A DNA stretch of 64,000 bases, from positions 992,001 through 1,056,000 of the forward strand of contig MKTZ01000001.1 in NCBI GenBank assembly GCA_001898505.1. The letters are read 5' to 3'. The position numbers and the translations under genes were made by a program. Origin of the DNA: Sphingobacteriales bacterium 50-39 (GTDB lineage: Bacteria; Bacteroidota; Bacteroidia; Chitinophagales; Chitinophagaceae). The notes beneath the pieces were generated by a model. The model was not told the DNA's origin and searched no databases. It was given only the letters and a program-made list of their open reading frames with translations. Of the stretch, positions 34,582 to 63,599 are shown piece after piece (position 1 is the first letter of the stretch; each line of letters begins with the position of its first letter).

Positions 34582-34588
34582 ATAAGGG

Positions 34589-37093: not shown

Positions 37094-37115
37094 GTCTGGT
37101 GTATTACTAATTATA

Positions 37116-46610: not shown

Positions 46611-47843
46611 TCAGGAAAGCAGTTTATTCCTTGCGATGAGACAGCCTCCTATGACCCCGGCCTTTTCTCCTAATTGGGAAAGATAAAGTTTTGTATCGCT
46701 GTTGACCAGGCTTAAGGAGTATTTGTTGATAGCGCTACGGATAGGGAGATAGATATAGTCACCTGTACTTACGAGAGTGCCGCCGAGAATGACCATCTCC
46801 GTATTGAATATATTGATGAGCAGTGCGATGCCGCGGCCGATCTTTTCCCCTATTTCAGCCAGAAGGTCGATGGATAGCATGTCCTCGTTGAGGGCGGCTT
46901 CAATAATGTCCGTCAGCCGGATGTCATCGATGTTTTGCGGATTGGTGAGAATGGAGGAGGTTTGCCCCTGCACGATCTTTTCTTTGAAAAGGCGTATCAA
47001 TGCTCTGCCGGATGCCTCTGTCTCCAGGCAGCCCTTTTTGCCGCAATGACAAATGATCTCGTTGTCGAAAACAGGGACATGGCCAATCTCGCCGCTGAAA
47101 CCTGATTTTCCATAGTACATTTTCCCATCTATCATGATGCCAAGGCCGAGGCCATAATCCAAATTCAGGAACAGTACATTTTTTTCATGCTTTACAATTC
47201 CTTTGTGGAATTCGCCATAGGCCATCGCTCTTGAGTCATTCTCCAGGAAGGTACGGATGGATAGCTGCCTTTCGACAATGCTGCTGAGAGGTTCTTCGTT
47301 GAAATGAAAAAAGCTATAGCTGTTGCCATTATTCGTATTGACCCTTCCCCCCAGGTTGATACACAGGGACAGGATATTATCCTGGTCGACAGGAGCCTGC
47401 CGGATGAAATCCCGGATCAAAGCGATGAGTGCGTCCAGGGACTGGCTTGTATTTTCCAGCACATAGGGAATCCTCATATTGGCAGTAACAAGGTTTTTTT
47501 TGAAGTCCAGGAGCCCGATGCTTACATAATACTGCTTGACATCCACACCCAGGAAAAAGCAGGAGTCCGCCACCAGGCTATACAGGCTGGCAGGCCGCCC
47601 AACGGCGGAGTCGATCTTCCCGCAATCTTTCAGGAGCCCGTCTGTTATCAATTCATTGATGAGACTGGTGGCTTTGGGAGGACTCAGGTTGAGGGCCTGG
47701 GCCAGATCAGCGATGGTCGTCTCCTCGTGCTGGTCCAGGTAATTAATGATCCTTCTCTTACGGGCCTTGTTCTTATGCGCCACGCCGGAAGCGCTCTCCT
47801 CCGAAAAGAAATCAAATAGGTTATGCTGCTGCATATTTATCAT
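46611..47843 (-). CDS. ROK-family transcriptional regulator (NagC/XylR-like)
   Basis: 410 aa from ATG 47843 (47834 is a close alternative). The winged HTH is at about 28-85 (RRIINYLDQHEETTIADLAQ, in pieces RRIINYLD and TTIADLAQALNLS), followed by the ROK sugar-binding domain. The zinc/ROK signature is complete: EIGH (252-255) and CHCGKKGC (265-272). ROK repressors bind phosphorylated or free aminosugars, xylose or glucose and release DNA. It is divergent from the epimerase-Sus operon across a 177-bp AT-rich spacer with direct repeats, so it is the likely local regulator. By neighbourhood the effector may be an N-acetylated sugar. Confidence 0.9.
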   Translation of the reverse strand: MINMQQHNLFDFFSEESASGVAHKNKARKRRIINYLDQHEETTIADLAQALNLSPPKATSLINELITDGLLKDCGKIDSAVGRPASLYSLVADSCFFLGVDVKQYYVSIGLLDFKKNLVTANMRIPYVLENTSQSLDALIALIRDFIRQAPVDQDNILSLCINLGGRVNTNNGNSYSFFHFNEEPLSSIVERQLSIRTFLENDSRAMAYGEFHKGIVKHEKNVLFLNLDYGLGLGIMIDGKMYYGKSGFSGEIGHVPVFDNEIICHCGKKGCLETEASGRALIRLFKEKIVQGQTSSILTNPQNIDDIRLTDIIEAALNEDMLSIDLLAEIGEKIGRGIALLINIFNTEMVILGGTLVSTGDYIYLPIRSAINKYSLSLVNSDTKLYLSQLGEKAGVIGGCLIARNKLLS

Positions 47844-48020: not shown

Positions 48021-49214
48021 ATGACTGCTCCAACGTCCATTGCCACAAGTGGCCTATCTACCCTAACTAACCGCTTTGCTGCACTTTATAAGGAAGAATT
48101 GGTGAATAATATTCTTCCTTTCTGGATCAATCACAGCCCCGACAACCAACATGGGGGATATTTCACCTGTCTCAACCGCGACGGCAGCGTGTACGATACC
48201 GACAAATTCATGTGGCTGCAGGGAAGGGAGGTTTGGTGTTTCTCCTATATGTATAATAACTTAGAGCCACGGAACCAATGGCTCGACATGGCAGTTCATG
48301 GAGCTGAGTTCATGAAGAAATTCGGCAGGGATGAAAAGGGCAATTGGTATTTTTCCCTGGCCGCCGATGGAAAACCTCTCACTCAGGCGTATAATATATT
48401 CAGCGATTGTTTTGCCGCCATGGGCTTCTCTTCGCTGGATAGAGCTCTCCCCGGCAAAGGCTATGACGCCATCGCATTGCAGACATTTGAAAATATCTTA
48501 CTCAGGAGGGATAATTGGAAAGGCGTTTATGAAAAGTCCTTTCCCGGCACTCGCCCCTTGAAGAGTTTTGCGCTGCCAATGATCCTTTCCAACCTTTCCA
48601 TTGAAATGGAGCATCTGCTGGGAAAGCAACGAGTGGATGCCTTCATGCCTTCCCTTATCCATGATGTAATGGAAATCTTCTATCGCCCGGAAGTGGGACT
48701 TATTGTAGAAAATATTTCCAGGGACGGGAGTCTCAGCAACAGCTTTGAAGGCCGTCTGCTCAATCCTGGCCACGCCATCGAAGCGATGTGGTTCCTAATG
48801 GACATTGGTCAGCGTTTGCAGGACAGGTCGCTGATCGAAAGATCGGTCTCCATCATGCTGCATACGCTGGAATACGGATGGGACAATGAATATGGCGGCA
48901 TATTCTATTTCATGGACAGACTGGGTTATCCACCGCAGCAGCTGGAATGGGATCAAAAACTTTGGTGGGTCCATGTGGAGGCTCTTGTTGCCCTGGCGAA
49001 GGGGTTTGCTTTAACAGGAGATCAGCGTTGCATCCAATGGTTTGAAAAAGTGCATGAATATACCTGGGCCCATTTCAGGGACAAGGAATACGGCGAGTGG
49101 TTCGGCTACCTCAACCGGCGGGGTGAAGTGCTGACAAGCGCTAAAGGAGGCAAGTGGAAAGGCTGCTTTCATATTCCTCGTGCCCTTTATCAGGTATGGA
49201 AAACATTTAGATGA
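48021..49214 (+). CDS. AGE-family sugar 2-epimerase (N-acylglucosamine 2-epimerase type)
   Basis: 397 aa, full length for the (alpha/alpha)6-barrel AGE superfamily. The catalytic histidines are visible as His251 in NPGHAIEAMWF and His384 in CFHIPRALY, with QGREVWCF (Arg69) lining the pocket. The NPGHAIEA spelling is that of N-acylglucosamine epimerases rather than cellobiose 2-epimerases, so interconversion of ManNAc and GlcNAc is the favoured reaction. No signal peptide, so it is cytosolic. It is the first gene of the operon divergent from the ROK regulator. By eye it is slightly less GC-rich than the downstream genes. Confidence 0.85.
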   Translation: MTAPTSIATSGLSTLTNRFAALYKEELVNNILPFWINHSPDNQHGGYFTCLNRDGSVYDTDKFMWLQGREVWCFSYMYNNLEPRNQWLDMAVHGAEFMKKFGRDEKGNWYFSLAADGKPLTQAYNIFSDCFAAMGFSSLDRALPGKGYDAIALQTFENILLRRDNWKGVYEKSFPGTRPLKSFALPMILSNLSIEMEHLLGKQRVDAFMPSLIHDVMEIFYRPEVGLIVENISRDGSLSNSFEGRLLNPGHAIEAMWFLMDIGQRLQDRSLIERSVSIMLHTLEYGWDNEYGGIFYFMDRLGYPPQQLEWDQKLWWVHVEALVALAKGFALTGDQRCIQWFEKVHEYTWAHFRDKEYGEWFGYLNRRGEVLTSAKGGKWKGCFHIPRALYQVWKTFR

Positions 49215-49318: not shown

Positions 49319-52300
49319 ATGACTCTCCCCAAACTTTCATTGCTTATGAGGTCAAAAATGCTGCTGCTACTCTTTTGCTGCTTGTTTCAGCAGGTGCTCA
49401 CGCAGGCTCAGTCATCGAAGGCCAGCGGCACCGTCAAAGACGCCAAGGGCAATCCCTTGCAAAAAGTCACGGTCCGGAGCCTTGATGGCAAGGCCTCTGC
49501 TATTACCGACAACCAGGGCTGGTTCGAGATCACGCTGAAATCTCCGAAAGTTTCCCTGGAGATATCCATGGTGGGCTACGAGACTAAACAGGTTACCGCT
49601 CAGCCCGGTGAGTCGCTTTCCATTATCTTAAAAGAAAAACAGAGCCAGCTGGACGACGTGGTAGTCGTTGGCTATGGCAAGCAAAAGAAAAGGGATCTTA
49701 CAGGTTCGGTGACATCGATAAAGTCCGAGGAACTGATGAAATCAAATCCCGTGACGGTAGAACAGGGTATTCAGGGCAAAGCTGCCGGTGTCTTTGTCAC
49801 ACAGACGGACGGAGCGCCTGGCGCCGGCATGAGCATCCAGATCAGGGGAACGAACTCCTTTCTTGGCGGTACGGAGCCATTATACGTCATCGACGGAGTG
49901 CCCATGGAGGCTGACAATACCAGCAATACGCCTTCTTCGGGCTCCTCTTATGAAGAGGCGAAGATGAATGTCCTGTCTTTTTTGAATCCGAACGATATTG
50001 CCTCCGTGGAGATATTGAAAGATGCATCCGCCACTGCCATCTACGGCTCCAGGGGCGCCAACGGGGTGGTCATCATCACGACCAAAAAGGGCGCTTATAA
50101 CCAGGATCGCATTGATTTCAATGTGCTGACGGGCATGTCGGAGATCACGAAGAAATACAAGCTGCTGAACGCCGAACAATTTGCCAATTACCAAAATGAG
50201 GCATATATCAATTCCGACCTTTACCTGGGTACGAATTATCAGGCTACTCAGACCATCCCATATCCGGGGAGATATGACTCCGTCCAGCAAAGGTATTTGA
50301 AGGCTCCCTCTGACTACCGCGGCAAAGGGACGAACTGGCAGGATATATTATTCCACCATGCGCCCAAACAGGAATATACGGTGACCTTTAGCGGCGGATC
50401 CAACAAGAACACCTACCTGATCAGCGGAGACTATCTCGATCAGTCGGGGATTGTGATCAGCAGCAATTTTCGTCGTTACAGCGTCCGGGCCAATGTCGAC
50501 AGGAACGTAAAAAACTGGCTGCAGGTTGGAACTTCCTTCAACTATTCGAATACGATCAACCACATGGTCACTACCGGCGCCAGCATCGTAGGGCCTGAGG
50601 GGGGCGTTATCAAATCCGCCCTGACCTTTCTGCCAACGGTCGCTCTGCTAGACACCACAACGGGTCTTTACTCTCAATTGTTCTATACATCCAACCCTTA
50701 TCAATATGCCAAACAGGCGCTGGACCAGGTCACAGGCACCCGGTTGTTCAATTCCTCCTATATCGAGGCGACCATACTGCCGCAGCTGAAATTCAGGAGC
50801 GTGCTTGGCTGGAATGTGTCCGCGGACAGGAGGGATCAGTATTATCCCACCACGATCAACGAGGGTGCTTCTTCCGGCGGCAGGGCTTATGTGTCAACGA
50901 CGAACAGCAGCAATGTCAGCTCGGAGAATTATTTCACCTATGATCAGAAATGGGGCATCCATGCCATCAATGCCACGGCGGGCTTCTCGTATAACAATGG
51001 AGTCTGGCAATACCAGATGGACGGTGTAAGCAAGTTCATGAATGACGCCTTGCAGAACAACAACCTCGGAGCTGCTGCCGTGTATACGCAGCCAACCAGC
51101 GGTAAATCCGACTGGCGTCTCTTGTCTTACTATGGCAGGGTGAACTATATTCTCAGCGATAAATATCTTTTTACGCTGACCTATCGCCGTGACGGATCCA
51201 GCAAATTCGCCGCCAACAACAAATGGGCCGGCTTCACCTCGGGAGCCGTTGCATGGCGTATATCACAGGAGAATTTCATGAAGAGCATTAAGTGGCTCAG
51301 CAACCTGAAGGCGCGTGCGAGCCTCGGACAGTCGGGCAACCAGGGGATAGGTTCCTACAGCTCCCTTTCTCAAATAGGCGCGTCCAACTATCCTTATTCG
51401 GGAACAGTCTCCAATGGGTATATCATTTCCTCTCTTGGCAATGACAAGCTGAAATGGGAAACTACCCGCCAGTTCGATGCCGGTCTGGATATAGGAATAT
51501 TCAAGGACCGCGTGAGCTTTGTACTTGACTATTATTACAAGAAGACGTTTAACCTTCTCCAATATGTGACGCTTCCTACCAGCACGGGCTTTGCTTCCCA
51601 ACTGATGAATGTCGGCACGATACAGAACAGGGGATTCGAGGCGGCCGTAAATGCTAAAATTGTAGATACCAGGGAATTCAGCTGGAATGTCGGGGCCAAT
51701 ATCTCGACCAACAGGAACAAGATCCTCGATCTGGGCGGCGTAAAGGAGCAGTGGGTACAGACCATCGGCACCGAACCCGTGAACTACCAGCCATTCATTC
51801 AGCGTGTGGGTCAACCCATCGGCCTGATCATGGGCTGGAAAGAGGATGGACTTTTCCAAAGCGAGAAAGAAGTACAGGACAGCAAGTTCTACAACGGGCA
51901 GTCTGCCGCGATCATCAAACGCATGGTGGGAGAGATCCGGTATAAGGATGTCGATAGCAACGGCGTCATCGACAACAACGACAGGACGGTCATCGGGAAT
52001 GTGAATCCCAACTATTACTATGGGTTCACTTCAGGGTTCACCTACAAGGATTTCGACCTGACCATATTCTTCCAGGGCGTACAGGGCGGCAATATCATCA
52101 ACACCCTGAAATATGTGACGGACAACCTGGGAAGTTATTCCAATACGACGGTGGATGCGTACAACGCACGATGGACGGGATCTGGTTCCAGGGGCACCAA
52201 CCCGAAGAATATCCTGAATTCCTGGAGAAGCCTGCGTTTTTCCGATCGCTATGTAGAGGACGGCTCCTATCTCCGGTTGAAGAACGTGAACCTGGGCTAT

Positions 52301-52501
52301 ACTTTCAGGTTCAAGAACCAGGAGATCATCAAGAGCCTGCGGGCATATGCCAGCGTAAACAACGTATTTACCATCACGCATTACAGCGGCTATGACCCTG
52401 AGGTCAACGGTTTCGGGCAGGATCCTTCCCGCAGAGGGGTGGACCTTGGCAACTATCCGACCTCCAGGTCTTTCACATTAGGACTTAACTGTTCTTTCTA
52501 A
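49319..52501 (+). CDS. SusC/RagA-type TonB-dependent outer-membrane transporter
   Basis: 1060 aa from ATG 49319. The signal peptide ends near LTQAQ. The N-terminal carboxypeptidase-like domain (SGTVKDAKGNPLQKVTV) is followed by the plug with DDVVVVGYGKQKKRDLTGSV (exactly the SusC hallmark), IQIRGTNSFLGG, YVIDGVPME and ILKDASATAIYGSRG. The large barrel ends in LGLNCSF with the terminal Phe. SusC transporters import oligosaccharides bound by a SusD lipoprotein, which is the next gene (20 bp). The glycan is unknown. Preceded by a 104-bp spacer after the epimerase. Confidence 0.95.
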   Translation: MTLPKLSLLMRSKMLLLLFCCLFQQVLTQAQSSKASGTVKDAKGNPLQKVTVRSLDGKASAITDNQGWFEITLKSPKVSLEISMVGYETKQVTAQPGESLSIILKEKQSQLDDVVVVGYGKQKKRDLTGSVTSIKSEELMKSNPVTVEQGIQGKAAGVFVTQTDGAPGAGMSIQIRGTNSFLGGTEPLYVIDGVPMEADNTSNTPSSGSSYEEAKMNVLSFLNPNDIASVEILKDASATAIYGSRGANGVVIITTKKGAYNQDRIDFNVLTGMSEITKKYKLLNAEQFANYQNEAYINSDLYLGTNYQATQTIPYPGRYDSVQQRYLKAPSDYRGKGTNWQDILFHHAPKQEYTVTFSGGSNKNTYLISGDYLDQSGIVISSNFRRYSVRANVDRNVKNWLQVGTSFNYSNTINHMVTTGASIVGPEGGVIKSALTFLPTVALLDTTTGLYSQLFYTSNPYQYAKQALDQVTGTRLFNSSYIEATILPQLKFRSVLGWNVSADRRDQYYPTTINEGASSGGRAYVSTTNSSNVSSENYFTYDQKWGIHAINATAGFSYNNGVWQYQMDGVSKFMNDALQNNNLGAAAVYTQPTSGKSDWRLLSYYGRVNYILSDKYLFTLTYRRDGSSKFAANNKWAGFTSGAVAWRISQENFMKSIKWLSNLKARASLGQSGNQGIGSYSSLSQIGASNYPYSGTVSNGYIISSLGNDKLKWETTRQFDAGLDIGIFKDRVSFVLDYYYKKTFNLLQYVTLPTSTGFASQLMNVGTIQNRGFEAAVNAKIVDTREFSWNVGANISTNRNKILDLGGVKEQWVQTIGTEPVNYQPFIQRVGQPIGLIMGWKEDGLFQSEKEVQDSKFYNGQSAAIIKRMVGEIRYKDVDSNGVIDNNDRTVIGNVNPNYYYGFTSGFTYKDFDLTIFFQGVQGGNIINTLKYVTDNLGSYSNTTVDAYNARWTGSGSRGTNPKNILNSWRSLRFSDRYVEDGSYLRLKNVNLGYTFRFKNQEIIKSLRAYASVNNVFTITHYSGYDPEVNGFGQDPSRRGVDLGNYPTSRSFTLGLNCSF

Positions 52502-52520: not shown

Positions 52521-54140
52521 ATGAAAATATTAAAATATCTTTTGGTATTCGCGGTGCTGGCAACCATCGGCTCCGGCTGTAAAAAGACCCTGGAAGAAAG
52601 CCCCTATTCTTTTTATTCCCCGAACAATCTTTATAAGACCCAGGCGGATGCCGAGGCGGCTATCACTGGCCTGTATGGCATCCTGGAAGGCTGGAGCTTT
52701 TTCAAAGCGCCCATCCTGTTCAGTGAAGATGCGGACCATGATCATATCGTAGGGCCGGTGTGGAACTTCAGCAGCCAGGGGGCAGGTGCCTACGACCAGT
52801 ATTGGGGGGTGGCGTCCATGTGGCAGGGACTGTACAATATTTCTGCCCAGGTGAATACGATCCTGGAAAAAGTTCCCGGTATCACTTTCGCTGCGGACTC
52901 CATTAAGAACCGCGTGATGGGAGAAGCGTATTTTCTCCGGGGCTGGTCCTATTTCAATCTTGTCAGGCTATGGGGGCCCGTGCCAGTTCGCCTGGTCAAC
53001 GTGACCACAGGGTCTGCGGACAAAGCGAGATCGTCTGTTGCTGACGTTTACAGCCAGGTGATCGCTGACCTTACCCAAGCTGAGAAGTTGTTGCCAAGGA
53101 AAAAAAGTCCGTTTGCAGGCGCTCCGGGTTCGGCGACGCAAGGCGCTGCCAAAGCGCTGCTGGCCAAGGTATATCTGACAATGGCTTCCGGTGCGGCGTC
53201 GGGTTCTGTAAAAGTGAGAGGCGGAACGGACAATGCGTATTATACCTTTAGCAAGGATTTGGTGGCAGGCTATGAAGGAATGGACTCCAAGTCCCTCTTT
53301 GCCAAAGCAAGGGATAAGGCGCAGGAAGTAATCAGCAGCGGAGACTATTCCCTGCAGCAGACCTATATGGGAATATGGGGAAGGGCCAATAAAAATAACG
53401 CTGAGATGATCTGGGAGTTCCAGACGCAGGACAATAGCAGCTACGGTACTTACCTTCAATACTGGTATTCTTCTCCGTATTATGGGGGCACATCTTATAT
53501 GTGGATGGCGCAGAACCTGTATGACAGCTACCAGCAACAGGACGACAGGGCCCTGAACGGGGTGTTCCACCAGTATTTCATGTATGGCGCCTGGATGTTC
53601 TATCCTTTGAGGGATTCTTCCTTATACAGCGCTGCACCCGGTGGTAATACCGCCAAATTCTATACATCCTATTCCCATCCCTTTACAAAGAAATACTGGA
53701 TAGGGACCTCTTCGGAGATAGGGAGCGCGGCTACTTCTACCAATGGCGGGCTGCGCGACGTGAATTTCCCCCTGCTGCGCTATGCGGACGTATTGTTGAT
53801 GTATGCGGAGGCCGCCAATGAAGCCGGCAGCGGTCCTGGTGCGGATGCTTATTCGGCATTGAACCAGGTAAGGGAGAGAAGCCTTGAGCAGGATACTTCC
53901 GGGCTGAACCAGCAGGATTTCAGGTCACTGGTATTGGAAGAGCGGGGGAAGGAGTTTTACCAGGAGAACAACCGCCGGTTTGACCTCATCCGCTGGGGCA
54001 TATTTACACAGGTGATGAACCAGGTGGGCACGATGGAGAATGTCATCAAGACCAGGTCGAAGAAGAACCTGTTATTCCCCATCCCGCAGAGCGAGATCAA
54101 TGCCAATAAGCTCATCGGGGGTAATAATTTCGGATGGTAA
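52521..54140 (+). CDS. SusD/RagB-type glycan-binding lipoprotein
   Basis: 539 aa with lipobox ending at Cys20 (ATIGSGC). TPR-like helices typical of SusD: TQADAEAAITGLYGIL, YNISAQVNTILEKV, RVMGEAYFLRGWSYFNLVRLWG (given as AYFLRGWSYFNLVRLWG) and the C-terminal RGKEFYQENNRRFDLIRWG. It lies on the outer leaflet and caps the SusC barrel. Its order after susC is normal for polysaccharide-utilization loci. The glycan specificity cannot be predicted by eye. Confidence 0.95.
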   Translation: MKILKYLLVFAVLATIGSGCKKTLEESPYSFYSPNNLYKTQADAEAAITGLYGILEGWSFFKAPILFSEDADHDHIVGPVWNFSSQGAGAYDQYWGVASMWQGLYNISAQVNTILEKVPGITFAADSIKNRVMGEAYFLRGWSYFNLVRLWGPVPVRLVNVTTGSADKARSSVADVYSQVIADLTQAEKLLPRKKSPFAGAPGSATQGAAKALLAKVYLTMASGAASGSVKVRGGTDNAYYTFSKDLVAGYEGMDSKSLFAKARDKAQEVISSGDYSLQQTYMGIWGRANKNNAEMIWEFQTQDNSSYGTYLQYWYSSPYYGGTSYMWMAQNLYDSYQQQDDRALNGVFHQYFMYGAWMFYPLRDSSLYSAAPGGNTAKFYTSYSHPFTKKYWIGTSSEIGSAATSTNGGLRDVNFPLLRYADVLLMYAEAANEAGSGPGADAYSALNQVRERSLEQDTSGLNQQDFRSLVLEERGKEFYQENNRRFDLIRWGIFTQVMNQVGTMENVIKTRSKKNLLFPIPQSEINANKLIGGNNFGW

Positions 54141-54163
54141 AATATTGATCAATAAAACCAGTG

Positions 54164-56134
54164 ATGTTATTTATGAAATGGGTCCTGATATTTCTCTTTT
54201 GTTGTCCTGTTCACCTGTTTGCCCGGACCGTCTACCTGGATGAGCTGGATACACGTTATATGGTGCAGGATTGGGGCTATCCCCAGGTGAACAAGTCAGT
54301 GCTGGGCGGGCCTCTCCGTGTGGCCGGGGTGCAATATGACAGGGGTATCGGGACCCATTCCATCAGCCGTCTGCTCGTAGCGCTGGAAGGGAAAGCCCTT
54401 TCGTTCTCCGGCTGGGCAGGGGCAGATGATCTCAATGATTTTGGAGGCAATATGGAATTTGAGCTTATTGCCGACGAGGTATTGGTATGGACCAGCGGCG
54501 TACTGCATAAGGGAATGCCTGCGCTCCCATTCTGCATTGACCTGCGAGGGGTGCGGAAACTGGCTTTGCTGGTGAAGGAAGGAGGTGACGGCATCATGTA
54601 CGATCATGCCGACTGGCTGGATGCCCGGTTTGAGACGATGAGCGGGATCATGGCAGAGCCTTGCGTGCCGTCTGCAAAGATCAATGAAGCAAAATATATT
54701 TTGACCCCGCAGCCTTCTGCCAGTCCCAGGATCAATGGGCCAAAGGTGTTGGGGGTGCGTCCCGGCAACCCGGTGTTGTTTACGATCCCGGCAACAGGCG
54801 AACGACCCATGCGTTTTAACGCCGAACATTTGCCTGACGGGCTGACACTGGACCCGGTCAGGGGAGTGATAAAGGGAACCATCCGGCAGGCGGGGACTTA
54901 TAACGTGGCGCTGAAGGCGGAAAGCAGCTGGGGCAGCGATATTCGTATGCTGCGGATCGAAGCAGGCGACCGGATCTGTCTGACCCCGCCGATGGGATGG
55001 AACAGCTGGAACTGCTGGGGGTTGAAGGTGGATGAGCAAAAGGTGAAGGATGCAGCGGACTTTATGGGAAAGAGCCTTGTCCAGCATGGCTGGGCCTATA
55101 TAAACATTGATGATGGATGGGAGGCTGAACAGCGGTCGGGGGACGGCACGTTAAACGGCAATGCCAAATTCCCGGATTTCCGGAGGCTGTGCGGTTCGAT
55201 ACATGACAAAGGCTTGAAGTTCGGCATCTATTCTTCTCCCGGTCCGCAGACCTGTGGAGGCCATCTGGGATCTTATGGCTATGAGCAAAAAGATGCTGCC
55301 ACCTGGGCGGACTGGGGAGTGGATTATCTTAAATATGATTATTGTTATTATTCGCAGATCGCACCCGCACCTACAGAGGTGCTTATAAAACATCCCTATG
55401 TCGTCATGCGGCAGGCGCTGGACCGGGTGAAGCGCGACATTGTATATTGCGTGGGATTTGGCGCGCCCCGTGTATGGTATTGGGGACAGGAGGCCGGGGG
55501 CAATCAATGGAGAACGACGAGGGATATAACGGATGAATGGAATGTGGTGACGGCCATCGGATTTTTCCAGGATGTATGTGCGCCTGTGGTGAGACCGGGA
55601 CAATACAACGACCCGGACATGCTGGTGGTAGGCAGGCTGGGACAGGGATGGGGGGATAAGGTGCACGATTCCTATCTGACGGCAGATGAGCAATACACCC
55701 ATGTCAGTCTGTGGTGCCTGCAGTCGGCCCCGTTGCTCATCGGATGCGATCTGTCGCATATAGATGATTTTACCATGAACCTGCTGACCAATGACGAGGT
55801 CATCGCGGTGGACCAGGACCCGTTGGCAATGCCGGTCCGTAAATTGATAAGGCCGGAAGGGCAGGTATGGTACAAGTGGCTGGAGGACGGTAGTATGGCA
55901 GTGGGGCTTTTCAATGTAGACCCATATTTCATCCTGTGGGATCAAGCAAAAGGAGAGACTGTCCAGCGGGAGAAGACTGCCATGACCCTGACATTTTCCG
56001 ACCTTGGATTGACAGGCAGGTTCAAGGTGAGGGATCTCTGGCGACAACAGGACCTGGGTATATTCGAAGGCAGTTATTCAACAGCTGTACCCTATCATGG
56101 GGTCCGCCTTATCAAGCTGACGCCGGAAAAATAA
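54164..56134 (+). CDS. NPCBM-GH27 alpha-galactosidase
   Basis: 656 aa from the ATG at 54164 (GTG 54161 and ATG 54173 are alternatives), with a signal peptide ending near LFAR. An NPCBM-type carbohydrate-binding domain (about 25-165, with RGIGTHSISRLLV, SGWAGADDLND, LLVKEGGDGIMYDHADW) is followed by an Ig-like putative He_PIG linker. The GH27 catalytic barrel starts at LTPPMGWNSWNCWG. GH27 motifs are NIDDGWE, DYLKYDYC (nucleophile Asp in KYD) and TTRDITDEW (region of the acid/base), plus QYNDPDMLVVG. GH27 enzymes release terminal alpha-galactose or alpha-N-acetylgalactosamine. It is 23 bp downstream of susD. Confidence 0.9.
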   Translation: MLFMKWVLIFLFCCPVHLFARTVYLDELDTRYMVQDWGYPQVNKSVLGGPLRVAGVQYDRGIGTHSISRLLVALEGKALSFSGWAGADDLNDFGGNMEFELIADEVLVWTSGVLHKGMPALPFCIDLRGVRKLALLVKEGGDGIMYDHADWLDARFETMSGIMAEPCVPSAKINEAKYILTPQPSASPRINGPKVLGVRPGNPVLFTIPATGERPMRFNAEHLPDGLTLDPVRGVIKGTIRQAGTYNVALKAESSWGSDIRMLRIEAGDRICLTPPMGWNSWNCWGLKVDEQKVKDAADFMGKSLVQHGWAYINIDDGWEAEQRSGDGTLNGNAKFPDFRRLCGSIHDKGLKFGIYSSPGPQTCGGHLGSYGYEQKDAATWADWGVDYLKYDYCYYSQIAPAPTEVLIKHPYVVMRQALDRVKRDIVYCVGFGAPRVWYWGQEAGGNQWRTTRDITDEWNVVTAIGFFQDVCAPVVRPGQYNDPDMLVVGRLGQGWGDKVHDSYLTADEQYTHVSLWCLQSAPLLIGCDLSHIDDFTMNLLTNDEVIAVDQDPLAMPVRKLIRPEGQVWYKWLEDGSMAVGLFNVDPYFILWDQAKGETVQREKTAMTLTFSDLGLTGRFKVRDLWRQQDLGIFEGSYSTAVPYHGVRLIKLTPEK

Positions 56135-56156: not shown

Positions 56157-57221
56157 ATGAACAGACGTAATTTTTTGTCACTGGGTAGCCTGGGCGCAGC
56201 GGGGATGCTCGCGGGTGGGCGGCTGCAGGCAAAGACGATCGGCGAGGCCCGGAAGGACGCAAAGATAAAACCTATCGCAGGCACATGGTTCGATTTTCAA
56301 CATCTCAATATAGAAGAAGGGCTTTACTGGGATCCGGCCCTGAAGAATTTTACCACGGAACAATGGAAGGAGAAGGTCAGAGAGATCAAGGGGTTGGGCA
56401 TGGAGTATATTGTGCTCATGGGTATTGCGGCGTTCGGTAAGGCGTTTTATCCGACCACGCTGGCGCCGCGGTTCGAGTTGGCGTGCGAGGACCCGCTGGA
56501 AGCCGTGCTTTCGGCTGCGGATGAGGAAGGCATAAAGTTCTTTGTCAGCAATGATTTCTGGGGGGATGGTCGCGATCCGGTGAAGATGATGAAAGACCCG
56601 GACATCAGGAAGGTCCGGGAGAAGGCAATGGTGGAAGTAGCGGCGAGGTATGGTCATCACAAGAGTTTTTATGGGTGGTATTTTCCCAATGAGGCCTGGC
56701 TGCATCCCTACCTGGATGAGTTCTTTATCGACTATGTGAATGATTGCGCGCGTATAGCGAAATCTCTTACGCCGGCGAGCGTCAACCTGATCGCTCCATA
56801 CAACATAAAGGCGGAAAGGGCCGATGACGGATATGTCCGGCAGCTTGAGCGGATGAATATCGAGGTGGTGGCTTATCAGGACGGGGTCGGTGTCAACTCT
56901 ACGAAGCTGGGCGAGCCGGCCAGGTATTTCGAGCATTTGTACGAAGCTCATCAGAAGGCGGCGCGGTCGAGGATATGGGCGGATATGGAGCTGTTTTATT
57001 TCGAGGACAAGACCAAGGGCAACCTGATGCCGGCGGATTTCGACACCCGCATATTGAAGCAGATGGAGGACTTGTCGCCCTTTGTCGACAAGATACTTTG
57101 TTACCAGTACATTGGGATCATGAACCCGCCGTATTCGAAGGCTTTTGCGGGACACAAGGATTCGGTGAGACTTTATAACCAGTACAAACGCTGGCTGGAC
57201 AAGCAAAAGAGTGGAAGATGA
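56157..57221 (+). CDS. DUF4434 protein with Tat-like leader
   Basis: 354 aa. MNRRNFLSLGSLGAAGMLAG is a twin-arginine style leader. The rest is a TIM-barrel-like DUF4434 domain: TWFDFQHLN, KVREIKGLGMEYIVLMG, AFYPTTLAPRFEL, FFVSNDFWG, SFYGWYFPNEAW, NLIAPYN and VAYQDGVGVN. Family members sit in glycan-utilization loci and resemble glycoside hydrolases, but no activity is established. The middle domain of the fusion gene at 58648 shares GM-x-YIVL, the YP motif and FYGWY with it, so the two are homologous. The stop overlaps the start of the next gene by 4 bp. Confidence 0.85.
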   Translation: MNRRNFLSLGSLGAAGMLAGGRLQAKTIGEARKDAKIKPIAGTWFDFQHLNIEEGLYWDPALKNFTTEQWKEKVREIKGLGMEYIVLMGIAAFGKAFYPTTLAPRFELACEDPLEAVLSAADEEGIKFFVSNDFWGDGRDPVKMMKDPDIRKVREKAMVEVAARYGHHKSFYGWYFPNEAWLHPYLDEFFIDYVNDCARIAKSLTPASVNLIAPYNIKAERADDGYVRQLERMNIEVVAYQDGVGVNSTKLGEPARYFEHLYEAHQKAARSRIWADMELFYFEDKTKGNLMPADFDTRILKQMEDLSPFVDKILCYQYIGIMNPPYSKAFAGHKDSVRLYNQYKRWLDKQKSGR

Positions 57222-58615
57222 GGAGAATGCTATGGTGTTTTTTTTATGGGCTGGTTCTGGGGATGACGCCCGCTGCGGCGCAGGGGGATTTGCGACTGCC
57301 TGCCATCCTGGGGGACCATGCAGTATTGCAGCAGTCATCCGATGTAAAGCTATGGGGGTGGTGTCCTTCGGTGTGGACCGTAAAGATCGTGTGCAGCTGG
57401 GCGCAGTCGGATACTGTCGTCACGACGCCCGGCAAGAACAATGCCTGGACGGCTGTTGTAAGGACGCCGGTGAAAGGGGGACCTTATACTATCCGTGTCA
57501 TAGGAGATAAAGAGACAAAGGAGATCCGGGATATACTGGTTGGCGAGGTCTGGCTATGTTCCGGGCAGTCGAATATGGAATATGCCGTCAAGTGGGGTGT
57601 TTCCGATGCGGGCGATGCGTTGAAGGACCCGGGCAATGAGCAGATACGCTGGTTCCAGCCTGCGCATGCCTCCGCAGACAATCCTATGGACGATGTGGCT
57701 GGCGAGTGGAAGCTCTGCGATGCGGCGGCATTGAAGGACTTCAGCGCGGTGGCCTATTTTTTCGGGCGCAGCCTCGAAGGGAGGCTGCATGCTCCGGTGG
57801 GACTGATAGGCTCTTATTGGGGCGGCACTTCCGTGCAGCCGTGGACGCCCCGGGAGGTATATGAAAAAGATACTGTGCTTGCCAGGCTGGCAGGCCGTAT
57901 CCGGCCAAGCTGGGCGCCTGTGGCGACCAGCGTGATCTATAACGCAATGGTATATCCGCTGAGGAAGTATCGTCTTGCGGGCGTGATCTGGTACCAGGGT
58001 GAATCCAATAATGAAGAGCCCGAGGACTATGGGCGGCTGTTCACGGGGATGATCAGGGGCTGGCGTGAAGCATTTCGACAGCAGCTGCCTTTTTATTTCG
58101 TGCAGATAGCACCCTGGAGCGGATATCAGGGTATCAACGGGGCTTTGCTGCGTGAGCAGCAGGCGGCGGCGTTGGTCCTGCCGCAAACAGGCATGGCGGT
58201 CACCGGCGACCTGGTCAGCGATGTTAAAGAGCTCCATCCTTCCGCGAAGCGGCAGGTGGGTGATCGGCTGGCCGGTCTGGCTCTGAAAGAGCAGTATGGC
58301 ATTGCAGGTATTCAGCCCTACTTTCCGAAGCTGGCGGATTTTGCGATCCATGGCGCCGAGGTTGTCGTCACGACAACCTCCCTGGGGAGATTGAGGAGCA
58401 GGGGTAGGGAAATCACCGGATTTCAAATTGCCGGGGCTGACCGGGTATTTTATCCGGCCGTCGCAAGGATGGAGAAGAATGGGGCTTTTTCCGTCAGCTC
58501 TCCAAAGGTGGGCAGACCGATGGCTGTCCGGTATTGTTTTACCAACGAAGGCCTTCCTGGGTTATATGACATCAACGGCTTACCTCTGCTGCCTTTTCGT
58601 ACGGACAAATGGTGA
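57218..58615 (+). CDS. Sialate O-acetylesterase-type SGNH hydrolase
   Basis: 465 aa, overlapping the DUF4434 gene by ATGA. Signal peptide about 1-22 (PAAAQ). The N-terminal beta domain (GDHAVLQQSSDVKLWGW) is characteristic of sialate O-acetylesterases. The nucleophile block CSGQSNMEY has Ser118, VIWYQGESNNEEP is the second conserved block, and DVKELHPSAKRQVGDRLAG carries the Asp/His dyad. The enzyme removes O-acetyl groups from sialic acid or other acetylated glycans such as xylan. In this operon it would de-acetylate the imported glycan. Substrate not proven: the family is broader than its name. Confidence 0.9.
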   Translation: MRRMLWCFFYGLVLGMTPAAAQGDLRLPAILGDHAVLQQSSDVKLWGWCPSVWTVKIVCSWAQSDTVVTTPGKNNAWTAVVRTPVKGGPYTIRVIGDKETKEIRDILVGEVWLCSGQSNMEYAVKWGVSDAGDALKDPGNEQIRWFQPAHASADNPMDDVAGEWKLCDAAALKDFSAVAYFFGRSLEGRLHAPVGLIGSYWGGTSVQPWTPREVYEKDTVLARLAGRIRPSWAPVATSVIYNAMVYPLRKYRLAGVIWYQGESNNEEPEDYGRLFTGMIRGWREAFRQQLPFYFVQIAPWSGYQGINGALLREQQAAALVLPQTGMAVTGDLVSDVKELHPSAKRQVGDRLAGLALKEQYGIAGIQPYFPKLADFAIHGAEVVVTTTSLGRLRSRGREITGFQIAGADRVFYPAVARMEKNGAFSVSSPKVGRPMAVRYCFTNEGLPGLYDINGLPLLPFRTDKW

Positions 58616-58647: not shown

Positions 58648-61617
58648 ATGCCTAAAAGATATCCCATAGGAAGAAATAGATTGAATACAAAAAGCTCGAG
58701 ATATAGGATGACCCTGGTCTATTGGGTTGTCATGCTTTGTCTGTCAGCAAGCGCGTTCGCAACGCCTCCTCTTCTGAAGTTCAAGGAGCACCGGTTCAAG
58801 ATCCTGCAGTTTACGGACCTTCACTGGATCGAGGGGAATGGGTTTCGGAAAGGGAATGACAGCGCGCTCAGCCTGATGCGTTATCTCCTGAAAACGGAGA
58901 AGCCAGACCTGGTAGTATTCACCGGGGACATTGTAGTATCCCGCGATGCCGCGTCCGGCTGGAAGAATGTGATACGCCCCCTGGAGGAGATGCAGGTGCC
59001 TTTTGCCGTAACCTTCGGCAATCATGATACCGAGACTGATCTTACGAAGACGCAAGCGCTGAACATCATCCGTGCCAGTCCCTATAATGTGACTTATAAT
59101 GTGGATAATGCTATCTCGGGCGTCGGCAATTGTGCGCTGCCAGTTAAGGACGGAACGGGCAGGCGGGACAAATGGGTGATCTACCTGTTCGACTCCCATG
59201 CCTATGCGCCTGATACGGTGGTAAAAGGCTATGATTGGATCCATAATGATCAGATCCAATGGTATCGTCGGCAAAGTTCTTTATATACACGTACTCACGG
59301 AGGACCTCTTCCTTCCCTTGCTTTTTTTCATATCCCGCTGCCGGAATTCGGCACGGTGAGTAATATGCCATCGAAGGTGGGAAATAGGGGAGAAGATGTT
59401 TGCGCCCCGCCCGTCAACAGCGGGCTCTTCACCTCATTTGTGGAGATGAGAGATGTGTGCGGCGTATTCGCGGGGCACGATCATAACAATGATTTCGCAG
59501 GAGTGCTGGACGATATATGCCTGGGATATGGGCGTAAAACAGGCTATAATGCCCCCTATCCCGAGACCCTGGAAAAAGGCGCCCGTGTGATCCAATTGTA
59601 TGAGAACGAGAGAAGGATCGAAACCTATATCCGCACGTTGAGCGGGGTCTTCGATACACTCCGCTATACAAGAGCGGCGACGGCCTGGCCTATTGCAAAC
59701 GGTACTTTCATACAGAACGACCTCGTGGCCCGTTGGGATGACCGTCGCTGGCAGGAGGAGCTGCATGCGTTGAAAGAAGCCGGTATGCATTATATCGTCC
59801 TGGCGCCAACGCTTCATACGGGGAAGGATGGGGTTTCAACGACCGTCTATCCTTCGGGGCTCCCGGGTGTGCGGCAGGAATATCCTTCCGACCTGGTGGA
59901 AAACTGCCTGCGTAATGCGAAAAAGGCTGGGTTTAAGGTTTTCCTGGGGTTGAATTTGCACGAGCGCTGGTGGGACGCGGATTTTTCCGAAGCATGGCTG
60001 AACGAGCAGATGGAGGTAGGGAATAACGTGGCGGACGAGCTGGTAAAAAAATACAAGCGGAGATATGACAGTACCTTCTATGGATGGTACTGGGTCTGGG
60101 AGGTGGACAACCTGCATTGCAAAACGACGGCGTTGCAGGATGTGCTGGCGGCGGTCCTGAACAGGAACCTCGATCATCTGCACAAGCTGACCCCTTCCAT
60201 GCCATTTATGCTGTGCCCTTTCATGAACTACAGGGTGGGTACGCCTGATGAAAACCAGCGGATGTGGACCTATGTATTTGCCCGGACGCATTTCAAGCCG
60301 GGAGATATCTTCGCGCCTCAGGATGGTGTCGGTGCGGGTGGGCTGGACCTGGACAGGTTGGAAGACTGGTATGCGAGGCTGCGGGCCGCGGTGGACACCA
60401 AGCCGGGCTTGTTATTCTGGAGCGACGCGGAGACCTTCGACCAGCGCTTCTGGACCATCGCTCCGCTGGACCGGTTTGTCCGGCAAATGCAGCTGGTGAG
60501 ACCTTATGTCAGCGATGTCATTAGTTTTGCATACAGCCACTATTACAGCCCCTATAAGGTGAACGGCGCTTATCACGACGCCTACCTGTACTATACCCGG
60601 AATGGGATCTTGCCATCCATTCCGGCACCTTTGCCGGTGGAGGGCCTAAGCGTTGCTGGCGACAGTACGGCTGCTTTGCTGTCCTGGCGGGCACCTGCTG
60701 TGGAGACCGGTATCGCCGGCTATTATATCTTCCGGAACGGGAAGCTGGTGGGGAATAGCCAGTATGACAAGGACGGCAAGTGCGGGACCAGCTATAAGGA
60801 AAAGGAAGCGCTTGAAAAAGGCGGTTACCGCTACGAAGTCTGCGCGTATACCTGCACGGGAGTGCTTTCAGACAAGAGGAGAGTGGTATGGTCGCGGGAC
60901 GGGTTCCTGCATAACGGGGTGATCGCGCATCGCGGCGCCTGGAAGAATCATGATGTCAGCGAGAATTCCCTTGGCTCGCTAAAAGCCGCCATTGGCCTGG
61001 GATGCGAGGGGTCGGAGTTCGATGTGTGGATGTCCGCGGACAGCGTTGTCGTCATTTCCCATGACCCGGTCATCGGCGGAAAAACGATAGAAAAGTCTAC
61101 CGCGGCAGAACTGGCGGAAGTGTCTTTGAAACATGGGGATCATGTGCCCACTTTACAGCAGTACCTGGATGTGATCAAAACGCAGCACGGGACCCGATTG
61201 TTCCTGGAGATCAAATCATCCCAGATGAGCCAGGAGCGGTCGCTGGCATTGACGGAGAGGGTGGTGCGCATGGTCCATGCGAACCATGCAGAGGCCTGGG
61301 TCAGCTATATCAGCTTCAATTACGGCGTTATACAGCGGGTGCGGGAATTGGATCCGGGGGCAGAGACAGCTTATCTCGGGGGGGATAAAAAGGTGGAGGA
61401 GTTGAAGGCAGGAGGGATAACGGGGCTTGATTACCCGTATTTTTCCTTTCATTCGGACACGGCGATGGCCGCGAATGCCCGACGGGCTGGGCTGAACGTC
61501 AATGTGTGGACAGTGGACAATAGGGATGAGATGAATTTTTTATTAAACCAGGGCGTGGACCGGATCACTACGAATGAGCCGGAGATGTTGCTGGATATCC
61601 TTGGCAAGAACGAGTAA
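58648..61617 (+). CDS. Four-part fusion: metallophosphoesterase, DUF4434-like barrel, FnIII-like, glycerophosphodiesterase
   Basis: 989 aa. The signal-like hydrophobic part follows a basic 20-residue start, and ATG 58708 (MTLVYWVVM) would give a standard signal peptide. Metallophosphoesterase (48-330): FTDLH (Asp57, His59), FTGD (Asp94), GNHD (Asn125, His126), FHIP (His228) and GHDH (277, 279), a full metal-ligand set. DUF4434-like barrel (345-650): GMHYIVL (379-385), STFYGWYWVWE and a C-terminal DVISFAYSHYYSP. FnIII-like (655-750). Glycerophosphodiester phosphodiesterase (755-987): HRG (761-763), EN (772-773), EFD (790-792), SHDP (804-807) and VNVWTVDN, all catalytic positions present. The gene is 32 bp after the esterase and 4 bp before ribokinase. 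The domain order was not known to me from any characterised protein. Confidence 0.88.
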   Translation: MPKRYPIGRNRLNTKSSRYRMTLVYWVVMLCLSASAFATPPLLKFKEHRFKILQFTDLHWIEGNGFRKGNDSALSLMRYLLKTEKPDLVVFTGDIVVSRDAASGWKNVIRPLEEMQVPFAVTFGNHDTETDLTKTQALNIIRASPYNVTYNVDNAISGVGNCALPVKDGTGRRDKWVIYLFDSHAYAPDTVVKGYDWIHNDQIQWYRRQSSLYTRTHGGPLPSLAFFHIPLPEFGTVSNMPSKVGNRGEDVCAPPVNSGLFTSFVEMRDVCGVFAGHDHNNDFAGVLDDICLGYGRKTGYNAPYPETLEKGARVIQLYENERRIETYIRTLSGVFDTLRYTRAATAWPIANGTFIQNDLVARWDDRRWQEELHALKEAGMHYIVLAPTLHTGKDGVSTTVYPSGLPGVRQEYPSDLVENCLRNAKKAGFKVFLGLNLHERWWDADFSEAWLNEQMEVGNNVADELVKKYKRRYDSTFYGWYWVWEVDNLHCKTTALQDVLAAVLNRNLDHLHKLTPSMPFMLCPFMNYRVGTPDENQRMWTYVFARTHFKPGDIFAPQDGVGAGGLDLDRLEDWYARLRAAVDTKPGLLFWSDAETFDQRFWTIAPLDRFVRQMQLVRPYVSDVISFAYSHYYSPYKVNGAYHDAYLYYTRNGILPSIPAPLPVEGLSVAGDSTAALLSWRAPAVETGIAGYYIFRNGKLVGNSQYDKDGKCGTSYKEKEALEKGGYRYEVCAYTCTGVLSDKRRVVWSRDGFLHNGVIAHRGAWKNHDVSENSLGSLKAAIGLGCEGSEFDVWMSADSVVVISHDPVIGGKTIEKSTAAELAEVSLKHGDHVPTLQQYLDVIKTQHGTRLFLEIKSSQMSQERSLALTERVVRMVHANHAEAWVSYISFNYGVIQRVRELDPGAETAYLGGDKKVEELKAGGITGLDYPYFSFHSDTAMAANARRAGLNVNVWTVDNRDEMNFLLNQGVDRITTNEPEMLLDILGKNE

Positions 61618-61621
61618 AACG

Positions 61622-62566
61622 ATGGAAATTGCTCATATGAATAAAACTATAGAGAGGGACGAGAGAAAAAAGATATTGGTCATTGGCAGCAGCAATACGG
61701 ATATGGTGGTTACGACCGGGAGGCTTCCTGCTGCGGGAGAAACGCTGCTGGGGAAAAGCTTTTTTATGAACGGGGGCGGGAAAGGCGCCAACCAGGCGGT
61801 TGCTGCGGCCAGGCTCGGGGCTTCTGTTTCCATGATATGCAAAGTGGGGAATGATGTGTTCGGACAGAAGGCCATAGATCTTTTGAAGACGGATGGCATC
61901 GACACCAGGTATGTGCTCAAGGATGCCGAGCTTCCATCGGGTGTTGCGCTCATTACCGTGGATGAGAAGGGAGAAAATCATATCATCGTTGCGCCAGGCG
62001 CCAATGCCGGGCTGTTGCCGAAAGATCTGACGGATGTGTCGCAGGTCATCGAGGCCAGCGATATCATTTTGATGCAGCTGGAGATCCCTCTGGAAACCGT
62101 GGCCTATGTCGCAGACCTGGCTTTCCGAATGGGCAAGCGGATCATTCTCAATCCCGCCCCGGCGCTTTCGATGCCCGGGGGCCTTCTTCGGCGCATTTCC
62201 CTGATCACACCCAATGAGAGTGAGGCCAGTCTGATCAGCGGCGTGAAAATTACGGACATGGATTCCGCTTGCGCAGCCGCCGTGGAGATCGCTGCAGTGG
62301 GAGTCTCCGATGTCATTATCACCCGAGGTGGGGAAGGGGCGCTTATTTTGAGCAAGGGCCGTTTTGAAGAGATCCCCGCCCCCGTGGTAGAAGCAGTGGA
62401 TACGACTGCTGCCGGAGATGTGTTCAATGGAGCATTGGCGGTTGCACTGGCCGAAGGAAATTCTCTTTTGGACGCGGCCCGTTTTGGTGTGGAAGCAGCG
62501 GCTTTGTCGGTGACTCGCAGGGGAGCGCAATCTTCGGCTCCATACCGCTGGGAGTTGTCAATATGA
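61622..62566 (+). CDS. rbsK: Ribokinase-family sugar kinase
   Basis: 314 aa from ATG 61622, 4 bp after the fusion gene's stop (ATG 61637 is a second option, and the longer reading from 61574 overlaps the fusion). PfkB signature 1 is GGGKGANQAVAAARLG, and signature 2 contains DTTAAGDVFNGALAVA with the catalytic Asp. ILNPAPA and LITPNESEA are ribokinase-like. It phosphorylates ribose or another free sugar released by the locus. Its cotranscription with the phosphodiesterase fusion and sugar transporters is the main clue to function. Confidence 0.88.
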   Translation: MEIAHMNKTIERDERKKILVIGSSNTDMVVTTGRLPAAGETLLGKSFFMNGGGKGANQAVAAARLGASVSMICKVGNDVFGQKAIDLLKTDGIDTRYVLKDAELPSGVALITVDEKGENHIIVAPGANAGLLPKDLTDVSQVIEASDIILMQLEIPLETVAYVADLAFRMGKRIILNPAPALSMPGGLLRRISLITPNESEASLISGVKITDMDSACAAAVEIAAVGVSDVIITRGGEGALILSKGRFEEIPAPVVEAVDTTAAGDVFNGALAVALAEGNSLLDAARFGVEAAALSVTRRGAQSSAPYRWELSI

Positions 62567-62591: not shown

Positions 62592-63599
62592 ATGTTTATT
62601 ATCCATGATTATTCATTAGCTGTCCTGTTTTGTTTTATTACCATGTTGTGCTGGGGTTCCTGGGGCAATACCCAGAAATTGGCTGCCAGGGACTGGCGGT
62701 ACGAATATTTTTATTGGGATTATGTCATCGGACTTTTGCTTTTCTCTTTGGTGCTCGCATTTACTTTGGGCAGTTTCGGCCGGGAGGGCAGAAGCTTCAT
62801 CGAGGATGTGGGGCAAGCGGGCTGGCCCGCTCTTGGCAGCGCGTTCCTGGGTGGTATCGTATTTAACGCGGCTAATATTCTTTTGTCAGCCGCTATATCT
62901 ATTTGTGGAATGTCCGTGGCCTTTCCCCTTGGTATTGGGCTCGCCCTCGTATTGGGCGTTCTCGTTAATTTCCGGGCTGAGGCCAGGGGGAATCCTCTTT
63001 TCATATTTGCCGGGGTAATATTTATTGTGGCTGCTATTCTATGCAACAGTATGGCCTACAAGAAAACGAATCCGGGAAAGGCCGGCGCTGGGACAAGAGG
63101 TATTCTTTTATCGTTGACGGCGGGCTTTATCATGTCGTTCTTCTATCGATTTGTTGCGGCGGCCATGGATCCTCCGGGATCCCTTTCCGGGGAGGTGCCC
63201 GGGAACCTGACACCTTATACAGCCCTCGTAATTTTTGCGTGTGGTGTTTTTTTCAGCAACTTTATCTTTAATACCATTGCCATGCATTATCCTGTCAGTG
63301 GAGTAAGGGTGCGAATATCCGGCTACTACAAGGGAAGTCCCGGGACCCATCTCGTCGGGATGCTGGGAGGAGCCATTTGGTGTCTGGGGCAGTCATTCAG
63401 CCTGATAGCTTCCGGCAAAGCAGGAGCGGCTATCTCTTATGGATTGGGGCAGGGCGCGACACTGGTTTCGGCCATATGGGGCATTTATGTGTGGAAAGAA
63501 TTCAAGGGTGCTCCCAAAGGAGCGCGTATATTGAATGGCTGGATGTTCTTTTTGTTTTTGACCGGCCTCTTTTTCCTGATATATGCCGGATCGCACTAG
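62592..63599 (+). CDS. GRP-family (glucose/ribose porter type) sugar transporter
   Basis: 335 aa with about ten membrane helices. The start LFCFITMLCWGSWGNTQKLA (in pieces ITMLCWGSWGN and TQKLAARDWRYE) is diagnostic for the GRP branch of the drug/metabolite transporter superfamily. Later helices include MSVAFPLGIGLALVLGVL, FFSNFIFNTIAMHYPVSG, GGAIWCLGQSFSLIASG and AISYGLGQGATLVSAIWG, here shortened. Members take up ribose, glucose or other monosaccharides. It lies 25 bp after ribokinase, so uptake followed by phosphorylation is the likely pairing. Confidence 0.8.
   Translation: MFIIHDYSLAVLFCFITMLCWGSWGNTQKLAARDWRYEYFYWDYVIGLLLFSLVLAFTLGSFGREGRSFIEDVGQAGWPALGSAFLGGIVFNAANILLSAAISICGMSVAFPLGIGLALVLGVLVNFRAEARGNPLFIFAGVIFIVAAILCNSMAYKKTNPGKAGAGTRGILLSLTAGFIMSFFYRFVAAAMDPPGSLSGEVPGNLTPYTALVIFACGVFFSNFIFNTIAMHYPVSGVRVRISGYYKGSPGTHLVGMLGGAIWCLGQSFSLIASGKAGAAISYGLGQGATLVSAIWGIYVWKEFKGAPKGARILNGWMFFLFLTGLFFLIYAGSH

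Follow-up and report, generated by a model that had tools for sequence, protein, structure and literature searches.

A 64,000-nucleotide stretch of contig MKTZ01000001.1 from Sphingobacteriales bacterium 50-39, hereafter the window, encodes a 989-residue protein, P0001, in which a metallophosphoesterase (MPE) domain, a DUF4434 barrel, an FnIII-like segment and a glycerophosphodiester phosphodiesterase (GDPD) domain follow one another in a single chain. The gene belongs to a SusC/SusD operon, and P0001 is a multimodular enzyme of a polysaccharide utilization locus (PUL). The explanation we prefer, held tentatively and at a little under even confidence, is that P0001 is an exported chain of three enzymes that would dismantle a phosphodiester-bearing, ribose-containing conjugate.

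The domain composition had been proposed in a first-pass annotation made from the sequence alone, and it was borne out. A Pfam search matched Metallophos (PF00149; 51.1 bits, cut-off 21.5), DUF4434 (PF14488; 209.7 bits, cut-off 30) and GDPD (PF03009; 89.1 bits, cut-off 23.6) in that order, none of the claimed catalytic domains was absent, and a beta-rich segment precedes the GDPD domain. The metal-binding and catalytic residues named beforehand are all present at the exact numbering. The eight MPE ligands D57, H59, D94, N125, H126, H228, H277 and H279 (motifs DxH, GD, GNH, H and GHxH) are invariant in nine of nine aligned MPE domains, and the GDPD motifs H761-R-G763, E790-F-D792 and S804-H-D-P807, together with E854 of EIKSS, line up with solved GDPDs. 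That the domain order arose by chance can be dismissed on the E-values and on the occurrence of the same order in two relatives of 76-81% identity. The N-terminal hydrophobic segment terminates in Ala-Phe-Ala, which fits export, and P0001 is on this ground probably exported; a possible alternative start, Met21 at 58708, lies just ahead of the segment.

An AlphaFold2 model of residues 37-989 had a mean pLDDT of 81.1 and a pTM of 0.52. Among the 50 matches listed when the whole model was compared with the PDB by Foldseek, the GDPD domain found 7ww4 and 3no3 and the barrel found 4h41. Structure prediction thus matched two of the three catalytic folds: no metallophosphoesterase was among those 50 matches and sequence matches to solved members of that fold are weak. 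It is the Pfam match and the ligand pattern that support the MPE fold. Sequence searches gave no close solved relative of this MPE subfamily, and we therefore assign no substrate to the domain. The domain order of P0001 is absent among the solved chains listed in the sequence and Foldseek matches.

The DUF4434 domain was also modelled separately (pLDDT 91.4, pTM 0.92). Its best structural match is 4h41 (TM about 0.8), followed by Cwp19 and then by GH39, GH164 and GH5 entries at TM of about 0.5-0.6. The protein in 4h41, BT_0435 of Bacteroides thetaiotaomicron, is a DUF4434-type putative alpha-L-fucosidase with the same barrel, although it is only about 20-22% identical to the barrel of P0001 and its function is putative only. 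In an alignment of 21 DUF4434 domains, which are 23-83% identical to that of P0001 and in which residue 1 is P0001 residue 341, E485, Q558, D559 and E595 do not vary. With strands counted by hand in the model, E485 comes after strand 4, E595 ends strand 7 and D559 lies between strands 6 and 7. Enzymes of clan GH-A carry their acid/base and nucleophile where the fourth and seventh barrel strands end, which places E485 and E595 at these positions. By the model, then, the barrel is a clan GH-A-like fold with a conserved carboxylate pair, and it likely acts as a glycosidase. The first-pass annotation had left it to hold or cut a sugar backbone; the carboxylate pair favours cutting.

The GDPD domain corresponds to residues 6-236 of the chain solved as 7ww4 and 7wwc, a GDPD-type domain 44-45% identical to it (E 6e-63 against the GDPD part of 7ww4), and stands much farther from Bacillus subtilis GlpQ (5t91; E 0.001). 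The 7ww4/7wwc chain is named beta-1,3(4)-glucanase and is a precedent for a GDPD domain joined to a glycosidase; it differs from P0001 in having 480 residues, of which only the GDPD part matched. PhoD has a family model of its own, which gave no match in the Pfam scan of P0001, PF00149 being the only phosphoesterase model to match the MPE domain. On these grounds, and in view of the recurring partner genes described below, the analogy with PhoD and GlpQ drawn in the first-pass annotation is not supported. As to the FnIII-like segment, the whole-chain model has strands only at about residues 665-749; Pfam fn3 gave no match in P0001 at E<=1, and fn3 matches behind DUF4434 in two relatives stay below the cut-off of 25 (L019, 23.9 bits; L013, 20.7 bits).

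The operon is laid out in Table 1. Genes downstream of the permease code for a sugar porter of the MFS type (assigned by similarity), a protein of FGE-sulfatase type, two members of the GFO/IDH/MocA family and a GMC oxidoreductase. No DUF4434 match was obtained in the source genome beyond the two in this operon.

Table 1. Features of P0001 and of its operon, in window coordinates
Feature	Position	Strand	Basis
ROK regulator, nearest NagC/Mlc models (below their cut-offs), divergent from operon	46611..47843	-	model scan
N-acyl-D-glucosamine 2-epimerase, NF052547, 657.9 over cut-off 600	48021..49214	+	model scan
SusC-type TonB-dependent transporter	49319..52501	+	Pfam
SusD-type binding protein	52521..54140	+	Pfam
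GH27-type alpha-galactosidase (Melibiase_2) with NPCBM domain	54161..56134	+	Pfam
Second, stand-alone DUF4434 protein (DUF4434b)	56157..57221	+	Pfam, genome search
SASA-type carbohydrate esterase	57218..58615	+	Pfam
P0001, multidomain, probably exported, 989 aa	58648..61617	+	ORF list, Pfam, residue check
N-terminal region, hydrophobic export-type segment, residues 1-39	58648..58764	+	sequence
MPE domain, residues 50-280, eight ligands all present	58795..59487	+	Pfam, residue check, alignment
DUF4434 (beta/alpha)8 barrel, residues 351-636; E485, D559, E595 invariant	59698..60555	+	Pfam, alignment, model
FnIII-like all-beta segment, about residues 665-749	60640..60894	+	model, sub-threshold fn3 matches in relatives; no Pfam match in P0001
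GDPD domain, residues 761-979; H761, E790, D792, H805, E854	60928..61584	+	Pfam, residue check, alignment, Foldseek
Ribokinase, TIGR02152, 359.9 over cut-off 299.65; true start may be further in	61574..62566	+	model scan
Ureide-permease/RhaT-like permease, recurring ribokinase partner	62592..63599	+	model scan, genome comparison

The link to ribose comes from the genes that accompany relatives of P0001. Scanning a collection of 84,980 species with a pattern-limited search yielded 17 loci (handles beginning with L denote loci, those beginning with G genomes; G000 is the source genome). Twelve of these are Bacteroidota with a close DUF4434 domain, and 11 of the 12 have SusC/SusD, the sequence of L003 beginning inside the operon. 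The partners that recur at the Bacteroidota loci are a permease linked to ribokinase (7/12), ribokinase itself (6/12), an ADP-ribosylglycohydrolase relative (6/12), N-acylglucosamine 2-epimerase (5/12) and nucleoside hydrolase (2/12, L011 and L012), all open reading frames (ORFs), overlapping ones too, being taken into the counts; the sequence of L016 stops right after DUF4434 and that of L008 inside the permease. The ribokinases scored, at L003, L005, L006, L007 and L011, all pass TIGR02152. Ribokinase and permease lie directly downstream of the gene in the source genome as well as in L003 and L005, and at L007 SusC/D, ribokinase and permease adjoin a fusion of MPE, DUF4434 and ADP-ribosylglycohydrolase.

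The linkage was also measured independently of DUF4434, with the L011 permease as query against 295 class genomes and 15-20 kb fetched per locus. Eleven matches were obtained in 9 of the genomes, and at the ten permease loci outside the window ribokinase was present in six, an ADP_ribosyl_GH relative in five and a nucleoside hydrolase in one. At L058 (3025-4068 and 9106-10095; G028:C7) about 5 kb separate the permease from an MPE of the P0001 subfamily that is encoded on its own. The genomes G000, G536, G557, G558 and G051 together hold eight ribokinases over cut-off and eight such permeases, seven of the pairs adjacent and the eighth about 6 kb apart. One of these genomes, that of the source, has its second pair at L087:9525-11470 (G000:C27) with an AraC-type regulator ahead; this 136-aa ORF was considered as a D-ribose pyranase and rejected. 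A deoxyhypusine-synthase-like gene, at L090:8196-9236, lies next to a permease homologue.

Ureide-permease/RhaT-like proteins are members of the drug/metabolite transporter (DMT) superfamily. A comparable system is the rus PUL of B. thetaiotaomicron: excerpts of one paper describe BT2803-2809 as needed for ribose utilization (PMC12596196), and excerpts of an iron-response paper list for the BT2804 block a ribokinase, a TonB receptor, SusD, DUF4969, a nucleoside hydrolase and a DMT permease (PMC10434189). As far as these excerpts go, the rus PUL and the window operon are alike in a SusC/D-type pair, a ribokinase and a permease, called DMT in rus (PMC10434189, PMC12596196). The window operon differs in having GH27, an esterase, an epimerase and P0001, and in having no nucleoside hydrolase among its scanned genes.

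In the preferred scheme the GDPD domain would hydrolyse a phosphodiester beside a free hydroxyl, the MPE domain would take off a phosphate or a second phosphodiester, and the barrel would act on the glycan as a GH-A-type glycosidase, while the GH27 enzyme and the SASA esterase of the operon would remove alpha-galactose and acyl groups. Freed ribose would enter through the permease and be phosphorylated by ribokinase. The predicted substrate of the chain is a conjugate that bears phosphodiesters and contains ribose, galactose and N-acetylhexosamine, ribose probably being one component of this mixture. The earlier idea of a one-chain machine acting on a phosphodiester glycan is accordingly kept as plausible, with its three catalytic-type domains intact in one probably exported chain of a SusC/SusD operon; the glycerophosphate or teichoic substrate that came with it finds little support.

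Several observations weigh against the ribose-containing conjugate. No ADP-ribosylglycohydrolase or nucleoside hydrolase is found among the scanned operon genes, the three ADP_ribosyl_GH genes of the source genome lying elsewhere, and the epimerase and the NagB/PIG-L proteins of relatives speak for an amino sugar and GH27 for galactose, with as much weight as the evidence for ribose. Half of the Bacteroidota relatives (6/12) have no ribokinase in the locus sequence examined; neither ribokinase nor permease was found in the locus sequence examined of L009, L010, L014 and G051, in the operon of L004, which encodes the full protein, or at any of the four Bacillota loci (L013, L015, L017, L019). 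A ribokinase-permease pair lies elsewhere in the genomes of L004 (G536) and G051; the pair therefore serves general ribose use too and is not linked exclusively to the P0001-type protein. Among the permease loci, three of the six with ribokinase come from one genus, no ribokinase was found near the permease of L058, and L090, L094, L095 and L096 have no ribokinase, ADP_ribosyl_GH or nucleoside hydrolase within the 15-20 kb fetched. The window permease is likened to that of B. thetaiotaomicron by description, and the pTM of the P0001 model leaves the relative arrangement of its domains uncertain.

Among the alternatives, an unlikely one is that the GDPD and MPE domains unpick glycerophosphate from an alpha-galactosylated teichoic acid or phosphoglycan, with the barrel handling the sugar and the epimerase and NagB recycling an N-acetylmannosamine-N-acetylglucosamine linkage unit. 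The membership of the P0001 domain in the GDPD family, the adjacent alpha-galactosidase gene, the epimerase scoring over its cut-off, the ROK regulator nearest NagC and the NagB/PIG-L proteins in L003, L004 and G051 all point that way, but the scanned operon genes include none for glycerol uptake or glycerol kinase, the MPE lacks a PhoD match, the GDPD is distant from B. subtilis GlpQ, and the ribokinase and permease would be left unexplained. It is weaker than a ribose-containing conjugate. We think it decidedly unlikely that P0001 is a single-chain depolymerase for a ribosyl-ribitol-phosphate-like polysaccharide, in which the GDPD would open an alditol phosphodiester, the MPE would take the remaining phosphate, DUF4434 would be a new GH-A family that cleaves the ribofuranoside or the sugar beside it, and ribose would pass to permease and ribokinase.

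We give small credence to a phosphorylated eukaryotic glycan (phosphomannan, glycosylphosphatidylinositol or inositol-phosphate glycans) from which the MPE and GDPD would strip phospho-substituents while the barrel and GH27 trimmed the glycan. A stand-alone MPE in G378, 49% identical, is beside a GH92-type alpha-mannosidase, the NagB/PIG-L protein of relatives has a PIG-L domain, and the GFO/IDH/MocA family, with its two genes downstream, includes inositol dehydrogenases; however, the scanned operon genes of the window include no alpha-mannosidase, and the NagB/PIG-L protein passes the glucosamine-6-phosphate deaminase-like model NF002557. Equally improbable is a P0001 with two phosphoesterases whose DUF4434 and FnIII-like parts only bind substrate, a view to which the lack of any DUF4434 paper in a limited literature search and the naming of 4h41 as no more than a putative fucosidase lend something, and which the invariance of E485, D559 and E595 in 21/21 aligned domains, at GH-A catalytic positions, opposes. 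That limited search likewise listed no relevant paper for PF14488, BT_0435, 4H41 or 3NO3, and found none under the code 7WW4 or on an ADP-ribosylglycohydrolase in a PUL.

The architecture of P0001 is rare but not unique. The full order occurs in 2 of the 17 loci (L003, L004), DUF4434-FnIII-GDPD in one (L005), MPE-DUF4434-FnIII in three (L006, L008, L011) and MPE-DUF4434-ADP_ribosyl_GH in one (L007:9971-13369, a Bacteroidales metagenome-assembled genome, UBA5287); nine have DUF4434 without either phosphoesterase and one has the MPE alone (L018). The L007 protein, of which we know no characterisation, shares the first two domains of P0001 and differs in having ADP-ribosylglycohydrolase in place of FnIII-GDPD. 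The parts also occur apart: at L009 (Dyadobacter frigoris) the GDPD and ADP-ribosylglycohydrolase are separate genes adjoining DUF4434 (this GDPD aligned badly and was omitted from the alignment used for folding), and in G051 and G137 DUF4434 and GDPD are encoded separately, on either side of a metallophosphoesterase of another type (PF16371/PF16370). In a tree the four GDPD-fused proteins, L005 included, form one supported clade (99/98), and three of the four other MPE-bearing proteins group with the MPE-less L012 (100/99), L008 falling outside and the deep branches being unresolved. Within this set of loci, fusion to a GDPD domain was observed in no genus but that of the window, MPE-DUF4434 being more widespread.

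All four parts occur in 3 of 33 same-genus genomes, the source included (G000, G558, G536), and G557 has a form without the MPE; the L003, L004 and L005 proteins have the same sequences as the G558, G536 and G557 proteins, respectively. Across 147 family genomes, the source genome was the only one with a listed match spanning the entire query; 395 phylum genomes gave three matches at E<=1e-80, full-length in the source genome only; and when the DUF4434 domain of L011 was compared with 395 class genomes, a similar domain at E<=1e-40 was again confined to the source genome. With strict thresholds, few candidates scored per genome and the pattern-limited scan, these counts are lower bounds. The claim that no characterised protein has this order thus stands as far as the solved chains listed and the limited literature search go, which found no paper on the architecture (papers listed on GH16, GDPD and laminarinase do not treat it), whereas the order itself is shared with a few relatives.

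Other observations were made along the way. A 775-aa open frame at L064:8658-10982 (-) joins an ADP-ribosylglycohydrolase to an alpha/beta-hydrolase esterase, and a 1586-aa frame at L063:5668-10425 (G000:C1, about 165 kb upstream of the P0001 gene) combines FG-GAP repeats, UnbV/ASPIC and ADP-ribosylglycohydrolase, with a GH20-type gene near it. An open frame of Cohnella phaseoli, L019:12122-14029 (-), combines S-layer, cadherin-like and fn3 domains with a region that strongly matches the ubiquitin family (E 9e-30). The window has three consecutive MacB/FtsX-type permease ORFs at 32185-39530 (-). Phage origin was rejected, one scan of viral contigs having given no relative.

If the preferred explanation is true, DUF4434, for which the literature searched offered no function, would gain a testable one, and phosphoesterases would be tied to the ADP-ribosylglycohydrolase, permease and ribokinase that recur together. 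The fusion series, from MPE-DUF4434, DUF4434-GDPD and MPE-DUF4434-ADP-ribosylglycohydrolase to the wholly separate genes of G051, provides natural constructs for dissection. The preferred explanation would also mean that Bacteroidota join two unrelated phosphodiesterases and a glycosidase in a single polypeptide as a means of getting at a sugar linked through phosphate.

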